From: Bradyrhizobium barranii subsp. apii
GTDB lineage: Bacteria > Pseudomonadota > Alphaproteobacteria > Rhizobiales > Xanthobacteraceae
NCBI RefSeq assembly: GCF_011516635.5
Contig: NZ_CP096255.1
Coordinates: 2,726,501-2,790,500 of the forward strand
Direction of reading: 5' to 3'
Length of the DNA: 64,000 nucleotides
Below, piece after piece: positions 16,934 through 51,564 of this stretch. A model generated the notes under the pieces. It did not search any database and was not told where the DNA came from. It saw only the letters and a list, made by a program, of their open reading frames with translations. Every line of letters begins with the position of its first letter. Within the stretch, counting starts at the first letter, position 1. Made by a program: the position numbers and the translations under genes.

Positions 16934-17076
16934 TTAGCGCTCAGCTTCAAAACTGGTCCGCCGTAAAAAATCCCCGGTGCTGACATTCCATAATCGGCTT
17001 TTCGAGAGGATGAGCCGGCGAGCTAGACTCTGCACGTTAAACACCTCATACGGGCCTAAGAGTCTGTCCGGAAAGA

Positions 17077-17448
17077 TTACCTTGGATTGCATAGCTTTCG
17101 CAGCATGAGTCGGATGGAGGCCAGCTTGAGAAAGGCGAGCGCCCTGTGATTGAAGCATTCCCAATCTTTGGACAGTCTTCGGCATCGCCCGAGCCAGGCA
17201 AAGGTACGCTCGACGATCCAGCGTTTGGGCAAGACGACGAAACGGTGAGCCTGATCGGAGCGTTTGACGATTTCGAGGTTCACGCGCTTCAGAGCGCTAC
17301 GCAGCCCCTTCTGGAAATGTGGCCCTTGATATCCGCCGTCGGCGTAGAGCTTCAGAAGAAAGGGATAGAGGCCGAACAACGTTGCCATCAGGAGCACGCC
17401 GCCGTCGCGATCCTGGATGTCCGCCGCATGCACGATGGCGTGCATCAA
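17077..17448 (-). pseudogene. IS5 transposase orfB portion of the disrupted copy
   Basis: This encodes the C-terminal half of the IS5 transposase with YADGGYQG (second Asp) and IVERTFAWLGRC (Glu), identical in sequence to the intact copies. It is separated from its N-terminal part at 20213-20509 by the 2.6-kb IS66, so no full transposase can be made from this copy. Confidence 0.85.
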
Positions 17449-17697
17449 GAGGCCTTGCGTGTCGACGAGAATGTGCCGCTTCTTGCCCTTGATCTTCTTG
17501 CCCGCGTCGTAGCCATGGAGATCATGAGGCCCCCTTTTTCAGCGCTTTTCACGCTCTGGCTATCGATGATGGCGGCGGTGGGAGAAGCCTCGCGCTCGGC
17601 CCTTTCGCGACATTCGTAAGCGCGAATTTCTCCGCACCTTTTGCTTTTGAGTGCCCTGATGCATGAGGTGTCCACCAAAATAAGTGGACACCTTGTG

Positions 17698-18171
17698 ATG
17701 AGCGACGATGATCAGAAACTGCGGGTCAGGCTTGTTGGCCGGAACGGTCGGCGGCGCTACGAGGCAGCATCGAAAGAGCGTCTTGTCACGGCCTGTCTTG
17801 AGCCTGGGGTTTCGGTATCGAGGCTTGCACTCGAATATGGGGTCAACGCGAACCTCCTTCGGAAATGGATCAAGAAGCACACCGCGACCAGGTCGCTGCC
17901 GCCGTCCTCACGCCCGGCGTTCATCCCGGTTCAGCTTGAGGGGTCCGCCGATCGGGCCTTGTCGCGGCAAGGCAGCGTGGCGGCGGTGGAGTTGCCGTCG
18001 ACTTGCGATGAAGTGCGAGGGTCGGAACCCAAGGGAGCGCCAGCTTTTTGTTCTCCCGCCAAAGTGAGCGTGTCCTTGCCGAACGGCGTGAAACTCGCAC
18101 TGGAATGCGGCGATGTGGATGCCTTGACGGCGATCATCGGAGCCCTTGGCCATGTTCAGACTGGGCGGTGA
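17698..18171 (+). CDS. tnpA: IS66 accessory protein TnpA
   Basis: The protein has 157 residues, read from the ATG at 17698 (MSDDDQK) rather than the upstream TTG. Residues 20-60 form a helix-turn-helix of the transposase-8/IS66 OrfA type (YEAASKERLV, VSVSRLALEYGVNANLLRKW). The C-terminus is the short beta segment common to IS66 OrfA proteins. It overlaps tnpB by 20 bases. Family knowledge: IS66 needs TnpA and TnpB together with the TnpC transposase. Confidence 0.88.
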   Translation: MSDDDQKLRVRLVGRNGRRRYEAASKERLVTACLEPGVSVSRLALEYGVNANLLRKWIKKHTATRSLPPSSRPAFIPVQLEGSADRALSRQGSVAAVELPSTCDEVRGSEPKGAPAFCSPAKVSVSLPNGVKLALECGDVDALTAIIGALGHVQTGR

Positions 18172-18505
18172 CCTGCAGGTCTATCTGCACCGTGAGCCGA
18201 TCGACTTCCGGGCTGGCATCAACAGCCTTGCGGTTCTGGTCCAGGAGACGATGGCACTCGATCCGTTCGCTCCGGCGGTTTTTGCGTTTTGCAATCGCCG
18301 TTGCGACCGGATGAAGCTGCTGTTCTTCGATCGGTCCGGCTTTGTGCTGGTCCTGAAGCGGCTGACCGAGGACAAGTTCCGATGGCCGCGCCGCCAAGAG
18401 GCGGTTGTCACGCTGACGACCGAGCAATTGCATTGGATTCTTGACGGCATCGATATCGATGCGATGGTCCGCCATCCGGTGCGGCAATATCAGGTTGCCG
18501 GCTGA
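18152..18505 (+). CDS. tnpB: IS66 accessory protein TnpB
   Basis: The protein has 117 residues from the ATG at 18152. It is the typical IS66 Orf2 sequence: LQVYLHREPIDFRAG, a central FAFCNRRCDRMKLLFFDRSGF and a C-terminal LTTEQLHWILDGID. The length is that of the family. The same family recurs at 53601-53954 in the second IS66, where the cores are similar but not identical. It is translated from within tnpA. Confidence 0.92.
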   Translation: MFRLGGDLQVYLHREPIDFRAGINSLAVLVQETMALDPFAPAVFAFCNRRCDRMKLLFFDRSGFVLVLKRLTEDKFRWPRRQEAVVTLTTEQLHWILDGIDIDAMVRHPVRQYQVAG

Positions 18506-18557
18506 GCTCTCGAGTTGAGCGGTTGACGCGTCGGTACGGTTCAGATTCAAGAATCCG

Positions 18558-20129
18558 ATGAATCGAACCGGCGATCCGAGTGTTGAGGTGCTGTTGGCGC
18601 GCATTGCTGCGCTGCAGGCGGAGAACTGTCAGCTCACGGAGCGCGTCGTCAAGCTCGAGGAAGAACTGGCGCTGGCACGCCTGCATCGTTTTGCGCCGCG
18701 CAGCGAAAAGCACGTCGATCGTCTCTTCAATGAAGCCGAGCAGGCCGCCGATGAGGATGACGCCGGCAGTGAAACGAACGATATCGCGGAACTTCCGGAC
18801 ACGGGCTTGCCATCCGTCGAAAGCGCGCCGGGAAAGAAGCGCGGCCGCAGGCCGCTGCCGGCGAACCTGCCGCGCGAGCGCGTCGAGTATGACCTGCTCG
18901 ACGATCAGAAGGCGTGTCCTTGCTGCCGTGGCCAGATGCATCGCATGGGCGAGGCTGTCACCGAGCAACTCCATATCGAGGTGAAGGCGAAGGTTTTACA
19001 GAATGTGCGCTTCAAATATGCGTGTCGCCATTGCGATCGCACCGGGATCAACGCACCTGTCGTGACCGCGCCGATGCCGACGCAGCCCTTGCCGGGCAGC
19101 GTTGCCACGGCCTCAACGCTGGCGTTTGCGCTGGTTCATAAATATGTCGATGGGACGCCGCTCTACCGCCTGGCGCAGGCCTTCGGACGCGCTGGAGTTC
19201 CTGTCAGCCGTGGCGCTTTGGGCCACTGGGTGATCGGCTCGAGCGAGAAGCATCTGCATCGCATCTACGACGCCCTGAAGCTGCGGCTCAGATCACAACC
19301 TCTCATCCATGGCGACGAGACGACGGTTCAGGTCCTCAAGGAGAAGGACAAAGAGGCCACCAGCACATCATACATGTGGGCTTATCGCAGCGGCAGGGAC
19401 AGTCGCGAGCCGATCGTTCTTCTGGATTATCAGCAGGGCCGCGGTCAAATCCACCCGCAGACCTTCCTTGGCGATTACCGCGGCATCGTGATGAGTGACG
19501 GCTATACCGCATGGCGCACGCTGGAAGGGGCCACCCACATTGGATGCATGGCCCACTCCCGGCGGCGCTTTGTCGATGCCCTCAGGGCGAGGAAGAAGGG
19601 CGGCGGTCCGCCTGAGCAGGCGCTGCGGTTCTTCGACCAGCTCTACCGGGTTGAAAGGCAGGCGCGGGACGGAATACCGGAGAAGGGTAAAACACAGGCC
19701 GACTGCATTCGCCGCTTCCGCCAGCAACATAGTGTCCCCATCCTCAATGCTCTCAAGGTATGGCTCGATGACATGGCCCCGAAGGTCTTGCCTGACAGCA
19801 AGCTCGGCGACGCCGTATCCTACACCCGAAACCAATGGGAATATTTGACGCGCTACACCGGGGACGGCAGCATGCCGGTCGACAACAATCTTCTGGAGCG
19901 CGACATCAGGGTTTTTGCAACTGGCAGGAAGAGTTGGTTGTTCAGCGATACCGTGGACGGAGCCAAGGCCAGTGCCGTCGTCTACAGCCTGATGCTGACC
20001 TGCCGCGCCTCACGTGTCGAGCCGTTAGCATGGTTGCGCCACGTCCTCACCGAATTGCCTCAGCGCGCCGGCAACGCCGATATTACCGACCTGCTGCCCT
20101 TCAACTTCCACAAAACCGCCACTGCCTGA
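18558..20129 (+). CDS. tnpC: IS66-family transposase TnpC
   Basis: The protein has 523 residues. It has an N-terminal coiled coil (LQAENCQLTERVVKLEEEL), then a zinc-finger-like CPCCRGQMHRMGE and CRHC, then the DDE domain with [20 protein letters not shown] and the final NNLLERDIR. The last residues (ITDLLPFNFH) are those of IS66 transposases. The length is full, no frameshift is seen and all family landmarks are present, so the element is probably functional. Confidence 0.94.
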   Translation: MNRTGDPSVEVLLARIAALQAENCQLTERVVKLEEELALARLHRFAPRSEKHVDRLFNEAEQAADEDDAGSETNDIAELPDTGLPSVESAPGKKRGRRPLPANLPRERVEYDLLDDQKACPCCRGQMHRMGEAVTEQLHIEVKAKVLQNVRFKYACRHCDRTGINAPVVTAPMPTQPLPGSVATASTLAFALVHKYVDGTPLYRLAQAFGRAGVPVSRGALGHWVIGSSEKHLHRIYDALKLRLRSQPLIHGDETTVQVLKEKDKEATSTSYMWAYRSGRDSREPIVLLDYQQGRGQIHPQTFLGDYRGIVMSDGYTAWRTLEGATHIGCMAHSRRRFVDALRARKKGGGPPEQALRFFDQLYRVERQARDGIPEKGKTQADCIRRFRQQHSVPILNALKVWLDDMAPKVLPDSKLGDAVSYTRNQWEYLTRYTGDGSMPVDNNLLERDIRVFATGRKSWLFSDTVDGAKASAVVYSLMLTCRASRVEPLAWLRHVLTELPQRAGNADITDLLPFNFHKTATA

Positions 20130-40089: not shown

Positions 40090-40236
40090 ATGGCGACCAT
40101 CGGCACTTTTACTGCTTCGGACAACGGCTACACCGGCTCGATCAAGACGCTGACGCTGAACATCAAGGCGAAGTTCGCTGCCTCCGAGAAGGACAACGAC
40201 AAGGCTCCCGACTACCGCATTTTTGCAGGAGCGACC
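40090..40236 (+). pseudogene. DUF736 gene, 5' part, cut by the 10.2-kb insertion
   Basis: The reading frame starts MATIGTFTASDNGYTGSI and runs to KAPDYRIFAGAT, then stops matching the family at 40237. The missing part ([17 protein letters not shown] and onward) is at 50413-50577. Joined, the frame is continuous and of normal length (about 103 residues). DUF736 proteins are small beta-rich proteins of rhizobial plasmids and islands with unknown function. Confidence 0.88.
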
Positions 40237-40328
40237 GATTATGCGGAGCGTGGCGTTATGCGGAGTGGCGTGATTTGAGCGCAGGTTTTTCGGCGCGTTT
40301 TGGATGGCGGCGCTCCGCATAATATCGT
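40237..40328. repeat. Palindromic end repeat, left copy
   Basis: The copy starts gattatgcggagcg, continues ttatgcggagtgg and ends gctccgcataatatcg. It is related to the reverse complement of 47664-47753, with matching ends and a variable middle. Inverted ttatgcggag/ctccgcataa arms are the sort of site a tyrosine recombinase could bind. Confidence 0.65.
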
Positions 40329-40334
40329 TGAGGA

Positions 40335-40372
40335 GAGCCGCGGCGCCTCGCGCGAGGCGAGACGCCGCAAGC
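40335..40372 (-). terminator. GC-rich hairpin downstream of the minus-strand DUF736 gene
   Basis: Nested arms gcggcg...cgccgc and gcctcgc/gcgaggc form a stem just after the stop of the gene at 40379. No T run is seen, so strength is uncertain. Confidence 0.4.
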
Positions 40373-40378
40373 CGAGGG

Positions 40379-40675
40379 TCAGCGCGACCAGACGAGCGCG
40401 TAGCCGTCATCGACCGCGACGAAGTTGGCGTAGATCGGCGCCGGGAAGGACGGGTCGTCGAGCTTCACCGAGTGATAGACGGTGTTCTCTTTCGAGGTCC
40501 GCTGCCACGCGGCGCCTATCTCAACGTTGCCGGCCGTCACGCGCAGGTCCGGCGCCTTCTCGTTACCGGAGGGTTCGGTCGGAAGGAAGCGTACCTTAAT
40601 GTTGAGCAAAAGCGTCTTGATGGTGCCGGTGTACGAGCCATCTTCGGCGCGGGTGAAGGTGCCAATCTGAGCCAT
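40379..40675 (-). CDS. DUF736-family protein
   Basis: The protein has 98 residues and the full family pattern: [71 protein letters not shown] and the end ALVWSR. It is an intact paralogue of the genes at 40090 and 44786 but diverged in the middle. Its leader on the minus strand contains the recurring ccgccaagcggcgg hairpin. Function is unknown; the family is typical of conjugative or symbiotic regions in Rhizobiales. Confidence 0.9.
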   Translation of the reverse strand: MAQIGTFTRAEDGSYTGTIKTLLLNIKVRFLPTEPSGNEKAPDLRVTAGNVEIGAAWQRTSKENTVYHSVKLDDPSFPAPIYANFVAVDDGYALVWSR

Positions 40676-41154
40676 GGTGATCTCCTGTTGCTGTTTCCAA
40701 GCCCGCGACCATCGCGGCCTTGATGGCGATCTGTGAGCGCCGCAACGACCGCCCCGCAGCCTTGGCCCGCAGCGTCAGCGGAGGATGGCGGGCTGAGCGA
40801 TCTTGTTGCCTCGCGAGGAATGCCGCCGCTTGGCGGCAGGGGAAGAAGATCGCGAACGAGCCATTGCGGGTAAAGGTCGGCGAGCGCAGCGAGCGTATTG
40901 TGGCGCGTGATCCGCCAGCAAAAGGCCGGTATGGACGTGAGCCCAAGCAGCTTCACAGGAGAGCATCGGCTCACAGGCATCACCAAGGCCAATGACGGCG
41001 TCACCGCACTAACCAGATTCACGCGCAACAAGAGCGTCCTTCTCCGGTTCCAAGATCGAACGGGAGAAGGCTCAACTTGCTGATGTGGCCGGCACGATCG
41101 TGCTGCCGCACCGAACGGACCGACGGCGCGTCACCGTAGCATGATAATGAAGCC
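40676..41154. other. Leader of the DUF736 gene and end of the RIT element, no gene
   Basis: The left part (40676-40850) is the recurring DUF736 leader in minus orientation. The right part is the 3' flank of the recombinase trio. Frames here are shadows. Confidence 0.45.
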
Positions 41155-42165
41155 TCACGTCGTGTCGGACGTAGATGCGTTCTCCAACAAAGAGGCGATC
41201 AATGCATCCGGCGCCCTGAACCGACCGCGGCGCAGCTCCGGCGGAACGACCGCTTCCACTGCCTCGAGCCTTTCCGAGGGATCCATGCGGAGATAGACCT
41301 CGGTTGTGCGGATATCGGCATGCCCAAGCCACAGCGCCACCTTCCGGATATCGTGCGTCGCCTGCAGCATGATCACCGCGCAGCTATGCCGAAGCTGGTG
41401 CGGAGAGATCGAACGACTGCGCAAGGACGGGCACGCCTCGGCCGCCGCACGAACGTGCTTGTCGAGCACGTACTCGAAGCCCGCACGGGTCATCGGCTCA
41501 TCCTGTGCGTTGACGAACAGCTCCGGCACGCGGACTGCTCCCCTGACGCTCAACCAGGCGCGAAGGTCGCGCGCGGTGTCCTTCCAGAGTGGGAGGCAGC
41601 GTTCCTTGCGGCCCTTGCCCCGGATCGTCACGCTCGCTCCGTGCTGGAGCGACAGGTTTTCGGTCAGAACGCCGACCAGCTCGGAGACCCGCAAGCCCCC
41701 GGCAAAGCAGAGGTGCATCATCGCCCGGTCGCGCACGCCGGATCGTGTCGCAAGATCGGGGGCGTTGAGGATCGCGCGAACCTCCTCCATCGTCAGATGG
41801 CGGATGAGCTTCTGGTCGTGGCGCTTGACCGGGATGGCATGGACGCGACCGATCTGCTCAAGGGCGGAGGGCACCCGGTGCTCCACATAGCGCATGAACG
41901 TCTTGATGGCGGCGAGCCGCAGGTTGCGCGTGGCGGCGCCATTGCCGCGCTCCTGTTCGATGTGGGCCAGGAAGGCGACGATCAGCGGCGCGTCCAGGTC
42001 TTCGATCGTCAGCCGTGACGGACGCGTGCCGAGCCGTTTCGCGGCGAAGTCGAACAGCAGCTTGAAGCTGAACGCGTAGGTCTCGCAGCTTTCCGGACTG
42101 TAGCCGCGCTGGCGGGGCATGTAGTCGCGCAGGAAGCCTGTGATGAGAGGGGCGAGCTTCGTCAT
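41155..42165 (-). CDS. Tyrosine recombinase, third gene of the RIT trio
   Basis: The protein has 336 residues from the ATG at 42165 (MTKLAPLITGFLRDY), overlapping the stop of the preceding gene. The N-terminal SAM-like core-binding domain has YSPESCETYAFSFKLLF. Catalytic residues are GGLRVSELVGV (Arg), SPHQLRHSCAV (His-x-x-Arg), LGHADIRTTEVYL (His and Tyr). The full set is present, so it may be active. A longer upstream frame beyond 42165 is a shadow of the neighbour. Confidence 0.9.
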   Translation of the reverse strand: MTKLAPLITGFLRDYMPRQRGYSPESCETYAFSFKLLFDFAAKRLGTRPSRLTIEDLDAPLIVAFLAHIEQERGNGAATRNLRLAAIKTFMRYVEHRVPSALEQIGRVHAIPVKRHDQKLIRHLTMEEVRAILNAPDLATRSGVRDRAMMHLCFAGGLRVSELVGVLTENLSLQHGASVTIRGKGRKERCLPLWKDTARDLRAWLSVRGAVRVPELFVNAQDEPMTRAGFEYVLDKHVRAAAEACPSLRSRSISPHQLRHSCAVIMLQATHDIRKVALWLGHADIRTTEVYLRMDPSERLEAVEAVVPPELRRGRFRAPDALIASLLENASTSDTT

Positions 42166-43082
42166 GCCACGCTCCCTCCAACCAGCATTTCCGCTGCCGA
42201 GGCGATATCCGCCATCATCTCCGGCGTCGCCTGGAGGTACCAGTAGGTGTTCTGGATATCGGCATGGCCGAGATAGGTCGACAGAGCGACGAAGTGCCGG
42301 GCGACCGCGCCACGCTCGACACCGCATTGTTCGAGCACGCGAGTTGCGAAGGTATGGCGCAGATCGTGGATGCGAGGCTGCTGGCTTCGCTCCGGTGCAA
42401 TTCCCGCTCGCCGCAAGACGCAGCGGAATGTGTAATTCACCGTCGTCGAGTACAGCGCCCTGTGCCGGACGGATGGGAACAGCCAGTCGCTTGCGCCGGC
42501 GCGTTGGCGGCGGGCCTCGAGATAGCGGGCGAGCGCCTCGATGACCGTCGGATGCAGCGGCACGAGCCGGCTCTTGCGGAACTTGGTCTCGCGGATGTGC
42601 AGCACACCATCGGGCCCAATGTCATCAAGCTTGAGCGCAATGGCCTCCGAGATGCGCAGTCCCGTGGCGGCGATCAGCCCGAACAGCATGACGTAGAGCT
42701 GGTGACGCAGGGGATTGGGCTTCTGACGTCGGAGCCTGCCGGCGGCCTCGAGGATGCGGGCGATCTCGTCCGCGGTATAGATATAGGGAATCGGTCGCGT
42801 TTGCCGGTTCCGCGCGAAGTCGGCGCGCGGGATCTCATGCCGAGGATCTTCGGCATGCAGGAAGCGCGCGAACAGGATCAGGTCCGTCAGGCGCCGTTCG
42901 CGTGCGCCCGGCGTCCGGGCGACCGTCGGCAACCAGGCGAGAACGGATGCGGTGCGGATATGCGCTTCGTCCCGCCCGGCGGCGAAGCGCGCGAAGGCAC
43001 GAAGACACCGCTCGGCCTTGACCAGCTTGTAACCGAGCGTGCGGCGAAGGGTGATGTAGCGGTCAGCGTCCTCGCTCAACAT
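42162..43082 (-). CDS. Tyrosine recombinase, second gene of the RIT trio
   Basis: The protein has 306 residues (MLSEDADRYITLRRTLGYK). Catalytic positions are ATGLRISEAIAL (Arg), KFRKSRLVPLH (Lys), IHDLRHTFATR (HxxR) and YLGHADIQNTYWYL (His and Tyr). It overlaps the first gene's stop by seven bases and the third gene's start by four, so all three are probably co-translated. Family knowledge: the three RIT proteins act together; the division of labour is not established. Confidence 0.9.
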   Translation of the reverse strand: MLSEDADRYITLRRTLGYKLVKAERCLRAFARFAAGRDEAHIRTASVLAWLPTVARTPGARERRLTDLILFARFLHAEDPRHEIPRADFARNRQTRPIPYIYTADEIARILEAAGRLRRQKPNPLRHQLYVMLFGLIAATGLRISEAIALKLDDIGPDGVLHIRETKFRKSRLVPLHPTVIEALARYLEARRQRAGASDWLFPSVRHRALYSTTVNYTFRCVLRRAGIAPERSQQPRIHDLRHTFATRVLEQCGVERGAVARHFVALSTYLGHADIQNTYWYLQATPEMMADIASAAEMLVGGSVA

Positions 43083-44287
43083 GGTAGCCTCCCGCCCCAG
43101 GGCTGCGCAATCTCCGACAAGAGGCCGATATCCACCTTGGCATAGAGCGCTGTGACCGATGGGGAGCGGTGCCGCAGCACGGCGCCGACACCGGCAAGGC
43201 TGGCGCCGTTGCGCAGCATGGTCGTCGCGGCGGAGTGGCGCAGAACATGAGCCCCACGATGGATGCTTTTGACGCCAGCCCTATCGAGGGCACGGCGCAC
43301 GATGCATTTCACGGCGATGCGGCTGAGCGGCCTGACGGGCGCAGCACTCGTCAGGAAGACCCGCGTTGTCGCGACGCGCGGCCGTGCCCGCTCGATATAG
43401 GCGAGGATGGCATCGCCAATCTCCTGAGTCAGTGGCAGGCGCTCCTCGCGCCGAGCCTTGCCGGCAAGGGTTATCCTGCCAGCCACCCAGTCGATCTCAC
43501 CGAAGGCCAGATTAGCGACTTCGCTTGCCCTGAGGCCCAAGCGGGCAAGGAGCAGAATGACGGCCCGATCGCGCAGCCGATCCTCGCCGTCACAAGCGGC
43601 AAGAAGGCGGCCGATGTCGGCTTGCCCGAGGAAGCGTGGCGTCGTCGCCAACTGCCAGTTCGCGAAGCTCGGAACAGCCTGTTCCCGGCCGACCGGGCAC
43701 TGCCCTGTCGCCACAAGATATTTGAGGTAGGCGCGCGTGGCGACGGTGATGCCTTGCGCCCGTCCGCGTCCGTGCGGCTTCGCGCGATCGAGCACGAAGC
43801 CGCGGATCGCGGCGGCTGTGTACGGGGCCGGATCGGTGCCGAGCGACGCCAGCAGGTCGACCAGGATCGCCTGATAGGTGTCGAGCGTGGAGTCCTTGAC
43901 GCCGCGCTGCTCCCGCATCCAGCGACGGAAGGCGGCCAGTGCCGGCCAGCTCTCCTCCAGCGACGGCCGCCGCTCCGGCGGCAGCACGTTCGTCTCACGC
44001 AGATAGGCGATGAACAGCGCGGCGGCGCCCTGTGGCGCACGAGTTGTCTTGCTACCCCGGAACACCGACGCCGATGCGGCGAAGCCGGCGGCGAGCGTTT
44101 CGATCTCGAAGCCGGACGCGCGGACCCAATCGGCCCACAGCGCGAGCAGGCGCGCCACCTCTGTTACTGTCGCCGGTGTGTATTTCCGCAGCGAGAGCCA
44201 GTCCTTGAAGTCATCGACATGCGGTTGCAGCCAGTTGATCCGGACATCAACGCTTCGGCGATGTCTGCGCTTTCGTTTTGTCACCAC
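43076..44287 (-). CDS. Tyrosine recombinase, first gene of the RIT trio
   Basis: The protein has 403 residues with a basic N-terminus (MVTKRKRRHRRSVDV) and an extra N-terminal domain before the core-binding domain, which makes it the largest of the trio. Catalytic positions are LGLRASEVANL (Arg), GKARREERLPL (Lys), AHVLRHSAATT (HxxR) and LRHRSPSVTALY (His and Tyr). It is intact. Confidence 0.9.
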   Translation of the reverse strand: MVTKRKRRHRRSVDVRINWLQPHVDDFKDWLSLRKYTPATVTEVARLLALWADWVRASGFEIETLAAGFAASASVFRGSKTTRAPQGAAALFIAYLRETNVLPPERRPSLEESWPALAAFRRWMREQRGVKDSTLDTYQAILVDLLASLGTDPAPYTAAAIRGFVLDRAKPHGRGRAQGITVATRAYLKYLVATGQCPVGREQAVPSFANWQLATTPRFLGQADIGRLLAACDGEDRLRDRAVILLLARLGLRASEVANLAFGEIDWVAGRITLAGKARREERLPLTQEIGDAILAYIERARPRVATTRVFLTSAAPVRPLSRIAVKCIVRRALDRAGVKSIHRGAHVLRHSAATTMLRNGASLAGVGAVLRHRSPSVTALYAKVDIGLLSEIAQPWGGRLPC

Positions 44288-44785
44288 GTTTTCCTTCGAG
44301 TTGCTTGTTCACGCCGGGAGCGCCCGGCGCGTCGAGCAAACCGAAGGTTTCGATCCCATTCCATGCGATAGGCGTTTTGCCCACTGGATCCGAATCCGAC
44401 ATGTCCGTGGAGACCCGTCGGGCGCGGCGTGTGTCGTTGGGTCGGAGCATGCTGGCCGTAATGCCGGAGGGTTGACGCGCCGGCGGCGCCGAACGTGCTG
44501 AAGAGGCGCCGACCGCCAGCGTCGTTCTCTGCCGACAATGCCGGCGAAGCCCCCGATGCGGCCTCTCTTGGGGCTGGTCTGGCGCCGCTCCAGACTTGGC
44601 CTGCAACGGCTCCGCCGACCTTCTTCCCCTGCGGCCACGCCGCATTCCTCGCGCAACAACAAGCTCGGCTGCCGCCGTCCTCCGCTGACGCTGCGGCCCG
44701 AGGGTGCAGACGTCCGGTCCATCGCCTCACGACCGCCATCGAGGCTGCATCGGGCGGCTTCGGGGAACTCTCAGGAGATACGACA
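44288..44785 (+). promoter_or_regulatory. RIT 5' flank and leader of the next DUF736 gene
   Basis: No gene is seen in these 498 bases. The first 300 bases are the promoter side of the RIT genes. From about 44620 the recurring DUF736 leader appears (ttcttcccctgcggccac, attcctcgcgc, then gccgtcctccgctgacgctg). Confidence 0.45.
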
Positions 44786-45085
44786 ATGGCTCAGATCGGC
44801 ACCTTCACCCGCGACGACAACGGCGCCTTCGCCGGCACGATCAAGACCCTCACCCTCAACGTCAAGGCCACCATCAAACCCTGCGACCGCGACAACGACA
44901 AGGCGCCCGACTATCGCGTCACCGCCAACGGTGTCGAGTTCGGCGCCGGCTGGAGCAGGACCGCCCGTGAGACTGGTGCCGAGTACCTCTCGCTCAAGCT
45001 CGACGATCCGTCCTTCACGGCTCCGGTCTACGCCTCCCTAGTTCAGGGTGACAAGGGCGAGCACAAGCTCATCTGGTCGCGATGA
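44786..45085 (+). CDS. DUF736-family protein
   Basis: The protein has 99 residues: MAQIGTFTRDDNGAFAGTIKT, NVKATIKPCDRDNDKAPDYR, VEFGAGWSRTARETGAEYLS, KLDDPSFTAPVYASL and the end HKLIWSR. It is the most typical family member in the window. AGGAG lies 13 bases before the ATG. Convergent with the primase-helicase gene, from which it is separated by a hairpin. Confidence 0.92.
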   Translation: MAQIGTFTRDDNGAFAGTIKTLTLNVKATIKPCDRDNDKAPDYRVTANGVEFGAGWSRTARETGAEYLSLKLDDPSFTAPVYASLVQGDKGEHKLIWSR

Positions 45086-45095
45086 CTGGCCCAAC

Positions 45096-45120
45096 GGCGC
45101 TCCGCTCTCAGCGGGGCGCC
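45096..45120. terminator. Hairpin between convergent genes
   Basis: ggcgctccgct and agcggggcgcc pair with one G-T wobble around a three-base loop. It lies between the DUF736 stop and the stop of the primase-helicase gene and could serve both directions. No T run is seen. Confidence 0.5.
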
Positions 45121-45121
45121 A

Positions 45122-47560
45122 CTACTCGATCACGTAGCCCAGCGCGCGATAACCCGCTCGTCGCTTCGCTCCCATCCGGGCCAGAACCGGGACGGTATTA
45201 TCGACATAGTCGACGACCAAAACATCTTTCTTGCCATCATGCTGGCGATGCAGGCGGCCGACATACTGTGCCAATGTTCCCTTCCAGGCGATCGGCATCG
45301 TCAGGAACAGCGTGTCGAGTCGAGCGTCATCGAAGCCTTCACCAATGTAGCGGCCTGTTGCGAGTATCAGACGCTCATCATCATCAGGGACATTCAACAC
45401 CGTGTTGGCTGTTTTGCGATCCTTCGCGGACATGCCGCCACGCAGCACCACGAGATTTTTCACGAATGGCGAGAATCTCTGACGAAGATATTCGAGATGG
45501 TCTTTTCGTTCTGTCAGAACGATGGGCGAACGCTTGGCTTCAAGCGATTTCAATACATCATCAAAGATCAGGTCATTCCGGCCACTGTCCTGCGCCAGGG
45601 CTGCATAGATCGCCGGCATTGACGGGCGTTCGGCCAACGCCAAGGACGGCGGCAATTCAAATTTCGTCGAGCGATCGCGGGCGCGGTGACGAATGCCACG
45701 TTCGGCAGCCTGAACTCTTGCATCGACCCGATGGCGAACAGGGCCGCATTGCATGAAGATGATGGGATGATGCCCGTCCTTTCGGGCAACGGTCGCGGAC
45801 AGGCCGACGACGTATCGCGCCTTTGACCGCCGAGCGACAAGCTCAAAGCTTGCAGCGGACAGATGATGGCATTCGTCGACAATCAGATGACCGTAATCAG
45901 CAACGATATCAGCGACCTCTCCATTGCGGACGAGGCTCTGGATGAGCGCCACATCGATGACGCCGGTCGGCTTTCTTTTTCCACCCCCGATAACGCCGAT
46001 CTGTTTCGGATCGATGTTCAAAAAGGAACTCAGGCGCTCCACCCATTGAGTGAGTAGTTCCCGGCGATGAACGAGAACCAGTGCGTTGCGGGCGCGATGT
46101 GCGATGAGTGCGGCTGCGACAACCGTCTTGCCGAAGGCCGTCGTGGCGGCGAGCACGCCGCTGTCGTGGGCAACGAGAGCATCGAAAGCCCGGGATTGTG
46201 GCCCTCGCAGTCCGCCCTGGAATGAGACGCCGGCAGGCAGCGCCGTTCCATCTTCGCGATGATCGTCCAAAATGGCGACCGCCCCGTGACTCTTGATGAG
46301 TTCGACAGTTTCGTCGAAGCAGCCGCGAGGCAGAGCTACATGTCGAGGATGGAGCTCGGCGCACGAGACGATTCGAGGCTTGCCGAATGTCGGCAAACGC
46401 ATTGCTTGCGCGCGATAGAATTCCGGGTTCTGGAACGCTGCCAAGCGAACGAACTGCGCAATCAGGGCCGGCGGAAGTTCTGTCCTGTCGATGTAGATCT
46501 GATCAGCGACCACGATCCTGATCTGCTGTGGTATCGCAGCATTGATACGCCGTGGCTCACTACGGCGTGACGGCGACATCTTCCACGGCTCGTCAGCATG
46601 TTCGTCATCGACCGGCATCCGGACGCCCAACACCCGTCCTGACAGTTCCGCCTCGTTGGCGATCCCGAAGGCCGCATCAGCTGATAATCTTGGGAGAGAA
46701 GACAGATACGCCCATTGGTCGTCGTAAGGTCGCAGATCTCTGTCGACAAAAACGCTGTTGCCAACTTCGCGAGCTTTTCGTTGGAGGGGAAGTGCAATCA
46801 GATTGCCGAAGCCACCAAGTGGCATCGTATCCTGGTTGGGAAAGAACCGATCATAAGAGGAGAAGCCGATCTCGGGACGTTTCTCCATCGTCTCCGTGAT
46901 CAGGGCCGCCCCCATCTGGCGCGCGGTCCGCGCCGGGATCGGTTCGCCGAAGAATATCCAGACATGGCCGCCATTTCCCGATCGGGACCGCTCGAGAGCG
47001 GCAGCGATGCCTCTGCCGCGGCAGGTTTGCAGGAGCGCCCCGGCGTCCTCCGCCCACGCCTCCTTGTCGAAGTCTGCGGCGAGGAACCAGCATGTTTCGT
47101 CCTGGAGCAACGGGTATACACCGGCGACAAAGTCACCGGTGCGGGTATCGCCGCCACGAAGGTGCTTTTCGATGATGTCCTCGGAAGGAGGAATGAAAGC
47201 CTGATGCGGGCATTCCCCACATTTTACCTTCGGTTTCCCGCAGATTTCTTTCGCCCATTCGTTGGAACAGGCCGGCGAATAACCGGAGCGTCCAGCTTTT
47301 CTATTTTCCCATCGCACCGGGAAAACATCGGGCCGCCCGGCGAACAGGCGCCGGAACAACTCGATTTTCTCGATAGATGAGGAGTTGTTGGTAACAGAGG
47401 CATCGGCAAAAGCGTGCCGTTCGGCCGCGCGGCTACCGGAGATCAGCTTTTGCTCAAGCGCTTCCAATTCACGCTCAAGCTCCATCCGCTCTGCATTCAG
47501 ATCAGCTAACCGCCGTCGAATGCGTGCGATTTCCCCCGAAGCTTCATTCTTGTCGACCAA
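45122..47560 (-). CDS. TOTE-type primase-helicase (AEP primase domain plus SF2 helicase)
   Basis: The protein has 812 residues from a TTG start. It opens with a coiled coil (residues 8-42), then a cysteine cluster (C98, C107, C114, C117). Residues about 140-330 are an archaeo-eukaryotic-type primase domain: CWFLAADFDKEAW (D163, D165), RSRSGNGGHVWIFF (H199), with GFGNLIALPLQ after it. From about 450 comes an SF2 helicase: AATTAFGKTVVAAAL, IVDECHHLSAASF, GLSATVARKDG, GRYIGEGFDDARLD and YVGRLHRQHDGK. This architecture matches the TOTE conflict-system primase-helicases. All catalytic motifs are present. It lies within the 10.2-kb insert, so it is likely cargo. Its role in defence or mobile-element replication is inference. 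Confidence 0.85.
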   Translation of the reverse strand: MVDKNEASGEIARIRRRLADLNAERMELERELEALEQKLISGSRAAERHAFADASVTNNSSSIEKIELFRRLFAGRPDVFPVRWENRKAGRSGYSPACSNEWAKEICGKPKVKCGECPHQAFIPPSEDIIEKHLRGGDTRTGDFVAGVYPLLQDETCWFLAADFDKEAWAEDAGALLQTCRGRGIAAALERSRSGNGGHVWIFFGEPIPARTARQMGAALITETMEKRPEIGFSSYDRFFPNQDTMPLGGFGNLIALPLQRKAREVGNSVFVDRDLRPYDDQWAYLSSLPRLSADAAFGIANEAELSGRVLGVRMPVDDEHADEPWKMSPSRRSEPRRINAAIPQQIRIVVADQIYIDRTELPPALIAQFVRLAAFQNPEFYRAQAMRLPTFGKPRIVSCAELHPRHVALPRGCFDETVELIKSHGAVAILDDHREDGTALPAGVSFQGGLRGPQSRAFDALVAHDSGVLAATTAFGKTVVAAALIAHRARNALVLVHRRELLTQWVERLSSFLNIDPKQIGVIGGGKRKPTGVIDVALIQSLVRNGEVADIVADYGHLIVDECHHLSAASFELVARRSKARYVVGLSATVARKDGHHPIIFMQCGPVRHRVDARVQAAERGIRHRARDRSTKFELPPSLALAERPSMPAIYAALAQDSGRNDLIFDDVLKSLEAKRSPIVLTERKDHLEYLRQRFSPFVKNLVVLRGGMSAKDRKTANTVLNVPDDDERLILATGRYIGEGFDDARLDTLFLTMPIAWKGTLAQYVGRLHRQHDGKKDVLVVDYVDNTVPVLARMGAKRRAGYRALGYVIE

Positions 47561-47940
47561 CTTTGTAGCCTACGCCTAAATGTTCATGTCGCGCGCAAAC
47601 ATAGACCAAAGACGACCTCCGTTTAAGGCGGACTATGCGTCACGACGGCCCAAGGTGTTCGACATTATGCGGAGCAAAATCCACCAAAACCGGCGGAAAT
47701 CCAGCCTCACAGGCCAACACTCCGCATAATGCCGCTCTACGCATAATCGGTCTTGGACGAACCCGCTCCGCGGGAGGGTATCCGCGTTGAGCGTGGGGTA
47801 TCCCCCTTGAAGCCAGCCCGTGTCTCTGACCCCGACACCACCCGTACAGCGACGTAATCCATTCCATTTCAGACGCGCTTGCCCTTGGCAAGATGGTGTT
47901 GCTGCCCGCGCGCAGCGTCCCCCTTGCCAAGGAGTTCGCT
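47561..47940. other. Non-coding region with a palindromic repeat before the recombinase
   Basis: This stretch holds the second palindromic repeat and the promoter side of the recombinase. AAGGAG at about 47930 precedes the recombinase ATG. No other gene is visible. Confidence 0.5.
47664..47753. repeat. Palindromic end repeat, second copy (reverse of the left copy)
   Basis: The copy starts cgacattatgcggagc and ends gcctacgcataatcg-like (ctacgcataatcgg). Read in reverse it is related to 40237-40328 at both ends and around the internal ttatgcggagtg. The middle differs. It is the likely upstream end of the recombinase/IS91 unit. Confidence 0.6.
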
Positions 47941-48825
47941 ATGACCTCGCTTCGGTTACGCATGATGGAAGACATGCAGGTACGCAACCTGTCGCGACAC
48001 ACACAGGATTCGTATTTGCTGCAGGTTTCGCAGTTCGCCCGGCATTTCGCTAAATCGCCGGCTTTGCTAGGCCCGGAGGATATCCGAGCCTACCAGGTCT
48101 ATCTGACGAACGAGAAAAAGCTGGCGCCACGTTCGGTGCACGTGACCGTCGCAGCGCTTCGATTCCTCTACCGCGTCACGCTCGGCCTCGATTGGGATTT
48201 CGACCAGGTCATTCCGTGCCCAAAGGCGCCAAAGACACTGGCCGTCATTCTCAGCCCCGAGGAGGTGCTGCACTTCCTTGGCTGCATCGAGAGCTTCAAG
48301 CACCAGGCGATCCTGACGACATGCTATGCCGCCGGCCTGCGTATTTCCGAGGCGACCCGCCTGAAGCCTGAGGCCATCGATCGCCAGCGCATGGTGCTGC
48401 GCGTCGAACAAGGCAAGGGACAGAAGGACCGCTACGTCATGCTATCGGCCAGGTTGCTGGAGGTGCTGACGGACTATTGGCGCGCCGTGCGACCCACCGG
48501 GGGTTGGATGTTTCCCGGCGCCGTTACTGGAGAACCGATATCGACAAGCGCCGTGGATGCCACCTGCCGCAAGGCACATCGGGTGTCGAAACTCTCCAAG
48601 CCGGTGACGCCGCATTCGCTGCGGCACGCATTTGCGGTGCACCTGCTCGAAGCCGGAACCGATCTCCGCACCATCCAGCTCCTGCTCGGCCATCGCAGCC
48701 TGTCGACGACCGCCCAATATTTGCGGATCGCTACCAACAAGGTCTGCGCGGCGACGAGCCCGCTTGAACTGCTGCCGCGCCCAATCCCCAAGGCTTCCTC
48801 GCCGCCAACGCCCGAACATTTCTGA
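47941..48825 (+). CDS. Tyrosine recombinase paired with an IS91-type transposase
   Basis: The protein has 294 residues from the ATG at 47941 (MTSLRLRMMEDMQVRNLS); a GTG further upstream is less likely because the ATG has AAGGAG. Catalytic residues are AAGLRISEATRL (Arg), GKGQKDRYVML (Lys), TPHSLRHAFAV (HxxR) and LGHRSLSTTAQYL (His and Tyr). It ends 11 bases before the IS91 gene, so the pair is an operon. Such pairs are known among IS91-like elements of Proteobacteria; the recombinase may resolve or circularise the rolling-circle intermediate. Confidence 0.9.
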   Translation: MTSLRLRMMEDMQVRNLSRHTQDSYLLQVSQFARHFAKSPALLGPEDIRAYQVYLTNEKKLAPRSVHVTVAALRFLYRVTLGLDWDFDQVIPCPKAPKTLAVILSPEEVLHFLGCIESFKHQAILTTCYAAGLRISEATRLKPEAIDRQRMVLRVEQGKGQKDRYVMLSARLLEVLTDYWRAVRPTGGWMFPGAVTGEPISTSAVDATCRKAHRVSKLSKPVTPHSLRHAFAVHLLEAGTDLRTIQLLLGHRSLSTTAQYLRIATNKVCAATSPLELLPRPIPKASSPPTPEHF

Positions 48826-48836
48826 CGGCCAACCTC

Positions 48837-50042
48837 ATGGGCCGCTCAAGTCCGGAGGTCGCGGATATATTCCGTCGCTACGGTGCTGCCTGGCGAGAGC
48901 AGCACCGGGCCTCGCTATCGACCGAACGACGCGCAGCGATGACTGCCATCGAGCGCTGCCGAACGTCGGCGCTCGGAGGGCATGTCGAACAGTGTGACCG
49001 CTGTAGTGAACGACGGATCGCGTACAACAGCTGCCGTTCCCGCAGTTGCCCCAAGTGCCAGTGGCTCGCCCGAGCGGAATGGATCGAGGCTCGGCGGGAA
49101 GAGCTTCTCGATACGCAGTACTTCCATGTCGTCTTCACCGTTCCCGACGAGATCGCCGCGATTGCCTTCCAGAATGCCAGCACGGTCTACAAGATCCTGT
49201 TCCACGCAGCCGCCGAGACTTTGCGCACCATTGCTGCCGATCGGCGACATCTCGGCGCGGAGATCGGGTTTTTCGCGGTGCTTCACACCTGGGGTCAGAA
49301 TCTCAGCCATCATCCCCATCTCCACTGCGTCGTGCCCGGCGGCGGGCTGTCGCCTGACGGGAGCCGCTGGATCGCGTGTCGTCCCGGCTTCTTCCTACCA
49401 GTCGCCGTGCTCTCCCGACTCTTCCGGCGATTGTTTCTCGAAGGCCTGCAAAGAGCATTCGATGCCGGTGAGTTGCGATTCTTTTCGTCATTGGAACGGC
49501 TGCACGATCCCGTCGCATTCCGGCGCTATCTGGATCCCGCCCGCCAGGTCAACTGGGTGGTCTATGCCAAGCCACCCTTCGCGGGCGCTGAGCAGGTTCT
49601 GGAATATGTCGGACGCTATACACACCGGGTGGCAATCGCCAACAACCGGATCGTCGATATCGAGGATGGCAAGGTACGCTTCCGGTGGAAGGACTATCGC
49701 AACGAGAACCGGCAAAAGGTGATGACGCTCGACGCCGGGGAGTTCATCCGGCGTTTCCTCGTCCATGTCTTGCCCGAGGGATTTCAGCGCATCCGTTATT
49801 ACGGTTTCATGGGCAACCGCTACCGCAAGCAAAAGCTCGCCCGCTGCCGCGAACTGCTCGGAATGCAGCAGTCCGATACGCCGGTAAAACCGAAGGAAGG
49901 GCGCGATTATCGCGACAAGGTCGAGGAGCTGACCGGAGTTTCCCTGCGAGAATGTCCCTTTTGCCGTCAAGGGCAGATGGTGTGCATCGAGGTGCTCGCG
50001 CCCGTTGCGTCACACGACCCACCTCTTATGGACACTTCATGA
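48837..50042 (+). CDS. IS91-family rolling-circle transposase
   Basis: The protein has 401 residues. The N-terminus has the zinc-finger pattern CDRCSERRIAYNSCRSRSC with KC following. The HUH motif is HHPHLHCVVPGGG near residue 160 and the tyrosine motif is LEYVGRYTHRVA near 255. A C-terminal cysteine pair (CPFCRQG) is also seen. Family knowledge: IS91 transposes by a one-ended rolling-circle process that can carry adjacent DNA. It appears intact. This fits its location at the right end of a 10.2-kb insert. Confidence 0.93.
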   Translation: MGRSSPEVADIFRRYGAAWREQHRASLSTERRAAMTAIERCRTSALGGHVEQCDRCSERRIAYNSCRSRSCPKCQWLARAEWIEARREELLDTQYFHVVFTVPDEIAAIAFQNASTVYKILFHAAAETLRTIAADRRHLGAEIGFFAVLHTWGQNLSHHPHLHCVVPGGGLSPDGSRWIACRPGFFLPVAVLSRLFRRLFLEGLQRAFDAGELRFFSSLERLHDPVAFRRYLDPARQVNWVVYAKPPFAGAEQVLEYVGRYTHRVAIANNRIVDIEDGKVRFRWKDYRNENRQKVMTLDAGEFIRRFLVHVLPEGFQRIRYYGFMGNRYRKQKLARCRELLGMQQSDTPVKPKEGRDYRDKVEELTGVSLRECPFCRQGQMVCIEVLAPVASHDPPLMDTS

Positions 50043-50412
50043 CGGTCGGGCTTTTCAACTCATTGATCATCGTGCTTTCCGTCTGCCAAGGCAGACAGCA
50101 GGCGTCCTATTGTCACGCCTCCGACATCGAGCCCTCCAGGCGCTGGCGTCGCCGGTCCTTTCGTCCGGGAGACCATATCTCGATTAGAATGTTTCGCATC
50201 AAGACCGCATCCAGCATGTCCCCGAAGCCCCGGCGACGGCGCTGTCCATCGGGAAGCAGCATCCAATTTCCATAGCGGCAGCTGCGCGCTAGGCGGCTTC
50301 GTCCAACACGTTTTTAGATTACCGGCGCACTCGCAGCTGCGCACTTTGAAGTTTCGGTACCGCGCCGCCAATCTAAAAACGCTCTCTATTATGTCGTGCA
50401 CCACATAATGTC
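50043..50412. other. Right end of the insert, non-coding
   Basis: Bases 50285-50412 contain an inverted pair, cgtttttagattaccggcg and the reverse theme gccaatctaaaaacg, and finish with ctattatgtcgtgcaccacataatgtcg. The last part resembles the outer arm (cataatgtcg) of the two palindromic repeats. It is the probable terminus (ori or ter) of the IS91-like unit. Confidence 0.5.
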
Positions 50413-50577
50413 GAATTCGGCGCCGCCTGGAAGAAGACGGTTCGCGACAGCGACCGCGAATATCTCTCGGTCAAACTCGACGATCCGAGTTTCCCGGCTC
50501 CGATCTACGCCTCGCTGGTCAAGGTCGAAGGCGAGGCGGATTTCACCCTGATCTGGTCGCGCCGCAGCGGCGACTGA
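50413..50577 (+). pseudogene. DUF736 gene, 3' part
   Basis: The frame [46 protein letters not shown] continues the 5' part at 40090-40236 exactly in frame. It has no start of its own and is followed by a strong terminator, so it is the natural end of a once intact gene. Confidence 0.88.
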
Positions 50578-51240: not shown

Positions 51241-51564
51241 ATGACCGCGATCGGATTCGTCACCCGCACAACTTACGGCGGCTTCAGGGGCCAGCTCAAA
51301 TTCCTGCCCGTCCGCGCCGACATCGACATCGTGCCAAACCGCGATAAGTCAGGCGATGACCCGTCAGACTTCCGCATCTTCACCCAGGGGCTCGAGGTCG
51401 GATCCGGTCGGATTTTGACCGGCGAGAGCCCCGGATCGGACTACGTCAGCCTGTCACTCGCAGCACCTGGCCTTGGGGTCCGCAAGCTCTGCGCCAACCT
51501 TGGTCGAACGGTTGGCCTTTACGCTGACGGCAGCTTCTTTCTCATCTGGAATCCTATCGACTAG
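51241..51564 (+). CDS. Divergent DUF736-family protein
   Basis: The protein has 107 residues from the ATG at 51241 (GAGGAGA upstream): MTAIGFVTRTTYGGFRGQLK, then DPSDFRIFTQGLEVGSG, SDYVSLSLAAPGLG and the end FFLIWNPID. It follows the DUF736 layout (start strand, D.R.., Y.S..., LIW end) but lacks the LDDPSF signature. A hairpin terminator follows. A frame extending upstream to 50956 is leader sequence. Confidence 0.8.
   Translation: MTAIGFVTRTTYGGFRGQLKFLPVRADIDIVPNRDKSGDDPSDFRIFTQGLEVGSGRILTGESPGSDYVSLSLAAPGLGVRKLCANLGRTVGLYADGSFFLIWNPID

Follow-up and report, generated by a model that had tools for sequence, protein, structure and literature searches.

A TOTE-type primase-helicase as the probable passenger of a RIT-type tyrosine-recombinase transposon in Bradyrhizobium barranii

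RIT elements are widespread among mobile DNAs, and two sources on them (PMC3414803 and PMC10214605) leave open, in their available portions, how the ends of these elements are built, how targets are chosen and whether the elements are mobile. In the available text of the first (Van Houdt et al. 2012), RITs are described as around 3.5 kb in length, bearing at their ends one inverted repeat and no convincing further binding sites, and two identical RIT copies in Dinoroseobacter shibae are already listed; the available text of the second gives the length of the RIT terminal inverted repeats as 34 bp. DUF736 genes, which recur throughout the analysis below, are described on Mesorhizobium ICEs as 'often in duplicate' in the accessible part of PMC8627217. 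In the literature searched, no paper was found on the TOTE AEP family, nor any that joins RIT elements to a TOTE domain (the subscription paper Ricker 2013 lies outside that literature), and the available portions of a paper on polyvalent proteins (PMC5512222) and of one on Tn7-like cargo (PMC8649781) hold nothing on TOTE and nothing on such a primase, respectively. RIT elements and the TOTE domain are already known; what is new here is the passenger gene, together with the element's ends, its target and an intact copy of the target site.

The DNA analysed (the 'window') is a stretch of 64,000 nucleotides from the genome of Bradyrhizobium barranii subsp. apii. At its centre of interest lies a single gene, whose product is laid out as follows:

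45122-47560, minus strand: TOTE-type AEP primase and SF2 helicase gene (open reading frame of 812 codons, TTG start)
Protein layout: helix, residues 2-48; four-cysteine cluster, 98-117; AEP domain, 64-295; helicase, about 446-812

The initial annotation had described this protein as an AEP primase (with DxD and His) joined to an SF2 helicase (with DECH) and preceded by a Cys cluster, a description that proved correct, although it gave neither the strand nor the ends of the surrounding element and mentioned neither the disrupted target gene nor the further identical copies in this genome. The primase domain is supported by the Pfam profile AEP-TOTE (PF22548), which matches residues 64-295 with an E value of 1.6e-97 (326 bits, against a cut-off of 27), and the 7nqd primase is matched by residues 142-301 at 1.4e-14 in a PDB profile search. 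Residues 451-593 match the Pfam profiles ResIII (2.7e-21) and DEAD (5.6e-11), and the helicase is XPB/RadD-like, its PDB profile matches being mostly to XPB/RAD25 and RadD helicases. In an alignment of 39 sequences, all four cysteines (C98, C107, C114 and C117) are invariant, as are D163 and D165 (DFD), H199 and D237 in the primase and G477-K478-T479, D562, E563, H565, A589-T590, G768-R769 and H771-R772 in the helicase, with C564 and S588 almost so; we take the conserved primase and helicase positions to be, respectively, the AEP catalytic acids and histidine and the helicase motifs. For the coiled coil of the initial annotation, a single N-terminal helix (residues 2-48) is predicted in an AF2 model of mediocre quality (mean pLDDT 70, pTM 0.48); the best Foldseek matches of that model are XPB/TFIIH chains, and little was gained over the sequence searches.

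Judged from codon comparisons, the gene is under strong purifying selection: whole-gene dN/dS values fall between 0.066 and 0.167 in 14 comparisons (13 distinct relatives, since L112 and L028 coincide in contig coordinates and are treated as a single locus), with 0.035-0.199 for the primase part and 0.041-0.133 for the helicase part. A pseudogene is ruled out by the whole-gene values and the open frame. A phage origin was likewise considered and rejected (1045 phage records matched, all at less than 60% identity and none covering 80% of the query; the 20 matches listed fall mainly in the helicase part), and scans of the window with Rfam and for tRNA genes found nothing. The PF22548 profile finds matches in 10 of 385 genomes sampled from the class, in 15 of 296 sampled from the family (13 over the cut-off) and in 19 of 398 sampled from the phylum (18 over the cut-off), all three lists including the present genome, and in one of 14 control genomes (Corynebacterium glutamicum).

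The gene is enclosed by an element of 7.5 kb (40238-47747) that also holds a trio of RIT genes and two DUF736 genes:

40238-40323, no strand: element left end, with ATTATGCGGAG at 40238 (+), 40255 (+, one mismatch) and 40313 (-)
40379-40675, minus strand: second DUF736-like gene within the element (by tblastn; 57% identical to the first)
41155-42327, minus strand: RitC-like tyrosine recombinase, open reading frame of 390 aa (Pfam Phage_integrase)
42162-43082, minus strand: RitB-like tyrosine recombinase, 306 aa (Pfam Phage_integrase)
43076-44287, minus strand: RitA-like tyrosine recombinase, 403 aa (Pfam Phage_integrase)
44786-45085, plus strand: first DUF736 gene within the element, tail to tail with TOTE (Pfam, on the longer open reading frame 44495-45085)
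47664-47747, no strand: element right end, with repeats at 47664 (+), 47720 (-) and 47737 (-, one mismatch)

The three recombinase genes are adjacent and overlapping (the true start of RitC is probably an ATG near 42165), and inspection by eye finds HxLRH and a late tyrosine in each product. The ends of the element are complex and inverted, being built from 10-bp arms (TTATGCGGAG/CTCCGCATAA). With up to one mismatch, seven occurrences of the 11-mer ATTATGCGGAG are found in the window, where 0.82 would be expected, and six of them make up two mirror-image ends, a paired pattern expected 0.00 times in shuffled sequence. The right end is the left end inverted: the two agree in 67 of 90 aligned columns for the window element and in 79 of 89 for the related elements L011 and L012. 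The arrangement of three arms had no match in 2.04 Mb of reversed control sequence, and in real sequence it marks the ends of elements, the single exception being a match in L047 that adjoins a second RitA match. Of the 17 plasmid records whose RitC is at least 79% identical, eight recur among the 50 TOTE records listed.

Taken as a whole, our main reading, to which we assign a probability of roughly 0.8, is that TOTE is an intact primase-helicase that travels as the passenger of a RIT-type tyrosine-recombinase transposon of about 7.5 kb. That the element moves is a conclusion read from identical copies, ends and target sites.

Immediately beyond the right end lies a further insertion:

47753-50387, plus strand: later insertion, a unit of Xer-like recombinase and IS91 transposase (ends approximate; 47753-50397 by BLAST, junction by eye at about 50387)
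47893-48825, plus strand: Xer-like recombinase (profile match)
48837-50042, plus strand: IS91 transposase (profile match)

The initial annotation had regarded TOTE as mobile cargo within an insert bearing both IS91 and RIT genes. Profile searches find both the IS91 unit and the RIT trio to be real, and the gene appears to be mobile within a RIT element; the IS91 unit, however, stands outside the ends of that element, between its right end and the C-terminal half of the target gene, and is thus not the vehicle. Carriage by an IS91 unit through ISCR-like, one-ended transposition is a highly improbable explanation, even though such a unit adjoins the element in all three copies in this genome and at one locus of Mesorhizobium waimense (L066, about 17070-19690), where a unit of 73% DNA identity over 1948 bp occupies the same junction slot. 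Both copies on the plasmid C2 have the unit in reverse orientation with respect to the element, so that the constant orientation of an IS91/ISCR vehicle is lacking; the unit matches Bradyrhizobium plasmids at places free of the element (among the matches listed); the elements of five plasmids (L011-L015, the trio being partly lost in L015) have no IS91 within 5.5 kb of TOTE; and homology to hosts that lack a nearby IS91 (L011-L013 and L015) stops at 47748-47749, before the unit begins. Because the ends enclose TOTE and exclude IS91, and in view of L011-L015 and the reversal in the C2 copies, the RIT element alone is the vehicle of TOTE. The slot beyond the right end, the same reversal and the unit found in that slot in L066 indicate that IS91 is a later guest rather than a carrier, one that may favour the RIT junction.

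A search for the gene beside other pairs of recombinase and IS91 genes, a check that the initial annotation had suggested, returned many RIT neighbours. Other than in this genome, L066 was the one locus where an IS91 gene lay no more than 5.5 kb from TOTE. In D. shibae (L016) a pair of tyrosine-recombinase and IS91 genes lies farther off, about 7 kb past TOTE, and in Rhizobium T136 an IS91 transposase falls within the matched block (among the matches listed). Two genera have a unit of IS91 and Xer-like genes in this position beside a RIT end, which suggests that such units might target the RIT junction.

The element of the window is situated between the two halves of a split DUF736 gene:

40090-40242, plus strand: target DUF736 gene, N-terminal half (sequence match)
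50404-50562, plus strand: target DUF736 gene, C-terminal half (sequence match)

The elements L011-L015, on plasmids of Agrobacterium, Ochrobactrum, Rhizobium (two) and Bradyrhizobium, also split DUF736, in either orientation. Of the 44 rhizobial-type ends whose flank extends for 200 bp or more, 32 have a DUF736 match directly outside, a count that includes one locus twice (L113 is L037) as well as the TOTE-less L139 and L140, and from which one end of L019 is absent because of its short flank. The break falls at residues 47-50 (numbering of the L155 protein) in 31 of these 32, the remaining one (L019) matching residues 1-26 only. The 12 ends without such a match are those of L028 (2), L139 (2), L021, L033, L047, L110, L111, L175, the window and L066, the last two being right ends with the IS91 unit in between.

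An intact site, GGCAGCGTCGAGCTGGG, is found on pAt4 of A. tumefaciens (L155). In the occupied site of Ochrobactrum (L012), one junction runs GGCAGCGTCGA-TTATGC and the opposite one GCATAA-TCAACG-20-bp palindrome-CGTCGAGCTAGG. Comparison of the two places the core CGTCGA on both sides of the insert; the right-hand 6 bp of L012 differ from the target core and are followed by the 20-bp palindrome. The core at the left end of the window element is GACCGA, CGTCGA being the cleanest case. At the sequence level, the element joins its target at a 6-bp core within DUF736 and in doing so splits that gene. By analogy, the L012 junction looks like a crossover of the Xer or Tn554 type with a 6-bp core, the properties of Xer sites being general background. 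The Tn554/SE side of the comparison is drawn from the available part of PMC10214605. Two further features of the target region may be recorded: a perfect or near-perfect palindrome of 20 bp (for example TTATGTGGAGCTCCACATAA) stands on the side of the DUF736 C-terminal half whatever the orientation of the element (window 50388-50409, L011-L015, L023 and L140), and a divergent DUF736 match (35% identity) lies past the insertion at 51241-51474, where the open reading frame is also DUF736 in Pfam.

Three copies of TOTE are present in the genome, with proteins 100% identical, and RitA is identical at all three. Compared with the DNA of the window, one C2 copy is 100% identical across 7273 bp, and the other shows a single mismatch and a single gap across 7369 bp (99.97%). 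The two C2 copies have in common a near-identical stretch (9,903 bp at 100%, plus neighbouring blocks), and the left ends of both are cut by other insertions; they may represent one insertion that was duplicated later. This larger shared stretch and these damaged ends imply one or more moves between chromosome and plasmid, without requiring two. Identical copies could also come from recombination between replicons. Another genome of the species, G395, gave no match, three of its nine first-look candidates having been scored. Elsewhere in the B. barranii genome, a broken remnant of an element (L010 8184-9031; C1:3320183-3321030) holds the DUF736 N-terminal half followed by pieces of TOTE, and 52 places on C1 and C2, mostly frames of 320 aa, match RitA residues 233-388 at 45.9-46.2 bits and 30% identity; these represent an unrelated tyrosine recombinase with many copies on chromosome and plasmid.

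In a second type of element, found mostly in Rhodobacterales and also at some Hyphomicrobiales loci, the RIT trio is more distant (38-53% identity) and stands tail to tail with TOTE. Strains of Dinoroseobacter, Pukyongiella, Sagittula and Gemmobacter, picked because TOTE was listed on two plasmids of each, have this 6.3-kb element on both plasmids at 99.98-100% identity, in flanks that are mostly 81-92% alike. The split gene is a strawberry-notch (sno) homologue in Pfam at the two loci tested, Pukyongiella L149 and D. shibae L016. Draft contigs L040, L049, L052 and L053, each 6.0-6.3 kb long, contain little besides the element and would fit collapsed repeats. In all four strains the paired copies (L016/L017, L149/L150, L151/L152 and L153/L154) are opposite in orientation relative to their matching flanks. 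Plasmids p5 and p6 of Sagittula share a second stretch, 3.8 kb at 100% identity, with another recombinase trio and no TOTE (L151 14485-18067, L152 3694-7276), so exchange between these plasmids is not confined to the TOTE element.

The recurrence of TOTE beside a RIT trio in elements of the rhizobial as well as of the second type, together with identical copies at several sites, raises the question of whether the gene belongs to the transposition machinery itself: the recombinases would make a copied-out circle, and the primase-helicase would unwind it and prime its second strand, so that the element would be replicative. The differing 6-bp core at the right end of L012 resembles the 6-bp footprint of Tn554 and SEs, and copy-out has been proposed for SEs in the accessible text of PMC10214605. 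Two RIT elements with the same ends do, however, lack the gene. L139 retains the ends, the RIT trio and the DUF736 pair, and is without a DUF736 match outside; L140, with an alpha/beta-hydrolase gene in the slot of TOTE, still sits in DUF736. Elsewhere TOTE accompanies Tni genes, whose mechanism is a different one. We therefore consider the machinery explanation unlikely, and a direct part of TOTE in transposition equally so. Since an element without TOTE occupies the same site, TOTE is unnecessary for targeting.

Conversely, TOTE occurs apart from the RIT trio. Loci L023, L028 and L030 are TOTE-only units with no RIT genes within the available flanks; L023 and L030 (the left end of the latter being unrecognised) sit in DUF736, and L028 is without a DUF736 match. 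No relative of RitA above 31% identity was found in the L028 genome (G490, a draft of about 140 contigs). At three further loci (Sphingobium L142, Paracoccus L058 and Mesorhizobium L090, with TniB in two frames in the last) TOTE follows TniA-TniB-TniQ genes; in L147 the Tni genes adjoin a decayed element in DUF736, and L055 has a piece of TniQ only. Assigned to vehicles, 129 loci, many with short flanks and some of them duplicates, comprise 35 with RIT, five with one Rit gene, six with Tni genes and 83 with none; the loci taken from genomes are limited to the best 80 out of at least 564. Among 35 well-flanked loci with open frames (L018-L097), the corresponding numbers within 5.5 kb are 13, 1, 3 and 18, the last including the TOTE-only L023 and L028. 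With 18 of 35 well-flanked relatives lacking RIT or Tni genes within that distance, TOTE is often found outside a recognisable vehicle. Genes for AbiEi/AbiEii toxin-antitoxin systems lie directly upstream of TOTE relatives outside RIT elements at L069 (8091-9934) and L079 (8657-9844, where AbiEii alone was profiled).

The same 18 loci, and the plasmid relatives in E. coli, Acinetobacter and Undibacterium that adjoin other genes, might be taken to mean that TOTE is a resident gene for plasmid replication or maintenance, beside which recombinases insert by chance. For the rhizobial clade this is disfavoured, since the repeats enclose TOTE, the host gene is broken at those repeats, and identical copies stand on differing backbones; we judge the explanation very unlikely. 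When vehicle labels are placed on a TOTE tree (a quick tree of 95 rows, inferred without a mixture model and with duplicates and short or distant rows left out), at least five changes are counted, a number that also uses the labels of L147 and L055. TOTE-less RIT elements, TOTE-only units, Tni neighbours and these changes together indicate a passenger that has changed vehicles.

The best reading is thus of TOTE as a selected passenger, whose primase-helicase would help the DNA that carries it. Strand exchange at the core would be carried out by the three Rit proteins, bound to the arms, in the manner of XerC/D- or Tn554-like recombinases. Less securely, the TOTE product might serve as a helper encoded by a single gene, opening DNA and priming it anew, whether in the restart of replication, in the priming of incoming single strands or in a contest with another mobile element, and through this activity a replicon carrying the gene would survive better. 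Among possible functions we place first, though only tentatively, that TOTE helps its carrier DNA to be unwound and primed again. The existence of TOTE-only units suggests that a single protein is enough, possibly aided by host factors. Quite unlikely is a reading of those units with RIT-type ends as satellite transposons, in which RIT recombinases acting in trans would copy out one strand and TOTE would unwind and prime it; if true, a single gene between two ends would constitute a split, replicative tyrosine-recombinase transposon. In any case, TOTE gains a natural minimal unit of one gene and two ends, and its independence from partner genes limits the functions that are possible. With the ends, the 6-bp core, the occupied and intact sites and the cargo variants in hand at base level, a transposition test can be designed directly.

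How, then, does this locus stand beside the systems already described? The TOTE AEP family (PF22548) has the same primase domain, fused here to an SF2 helicase; the name of that family implies a conflict system, whereas the present member is known from sequence and neither a conflict partner nor such an activity was found for it, and the function in 'biological conflicts' offered in the initial annotation rests on the Pfam name. CRISPR-associated PrimPol (NF040561; 7nqd) belongs to the same AEP superfamily, and the PADLOC PrimPol model matches TOTE at 4e-88; unlike those proteins TOTE is fused to a helicase, and assignment to type A1 was rejected at 77.7 bits, below the NF040561 cut-off of 200. 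No CRISPR genes were seen among the window proteins examined. The likeness to RIT elements, as given in the available text of PMC3414803, lies in the three adjacent, overlapping tyrosine-recombinase genes, arranged in the same order, and in identical copies on several replicons. The present element differs from the RITs of that text in its length of 7.5 kb, its passenger genes, its ends of repeated arms, its fixed target and its intact comparison site, and its inverted ends are longer than the 34-bp repeats of the accessible part of PMC10214605. With Tn554, SEs and GInts, as described in that same portion, it shares several tyrosine recombinases, a fixed target and a 6-bp core, and it may share with them the 6 bp that differ at one end; no counterpart of their fourth, accessory gene (TnpC/Srap/GinD) was recognised in passing, and it is set apart from them by the 20-bp near-palindrome on the C-terminal side of its target.
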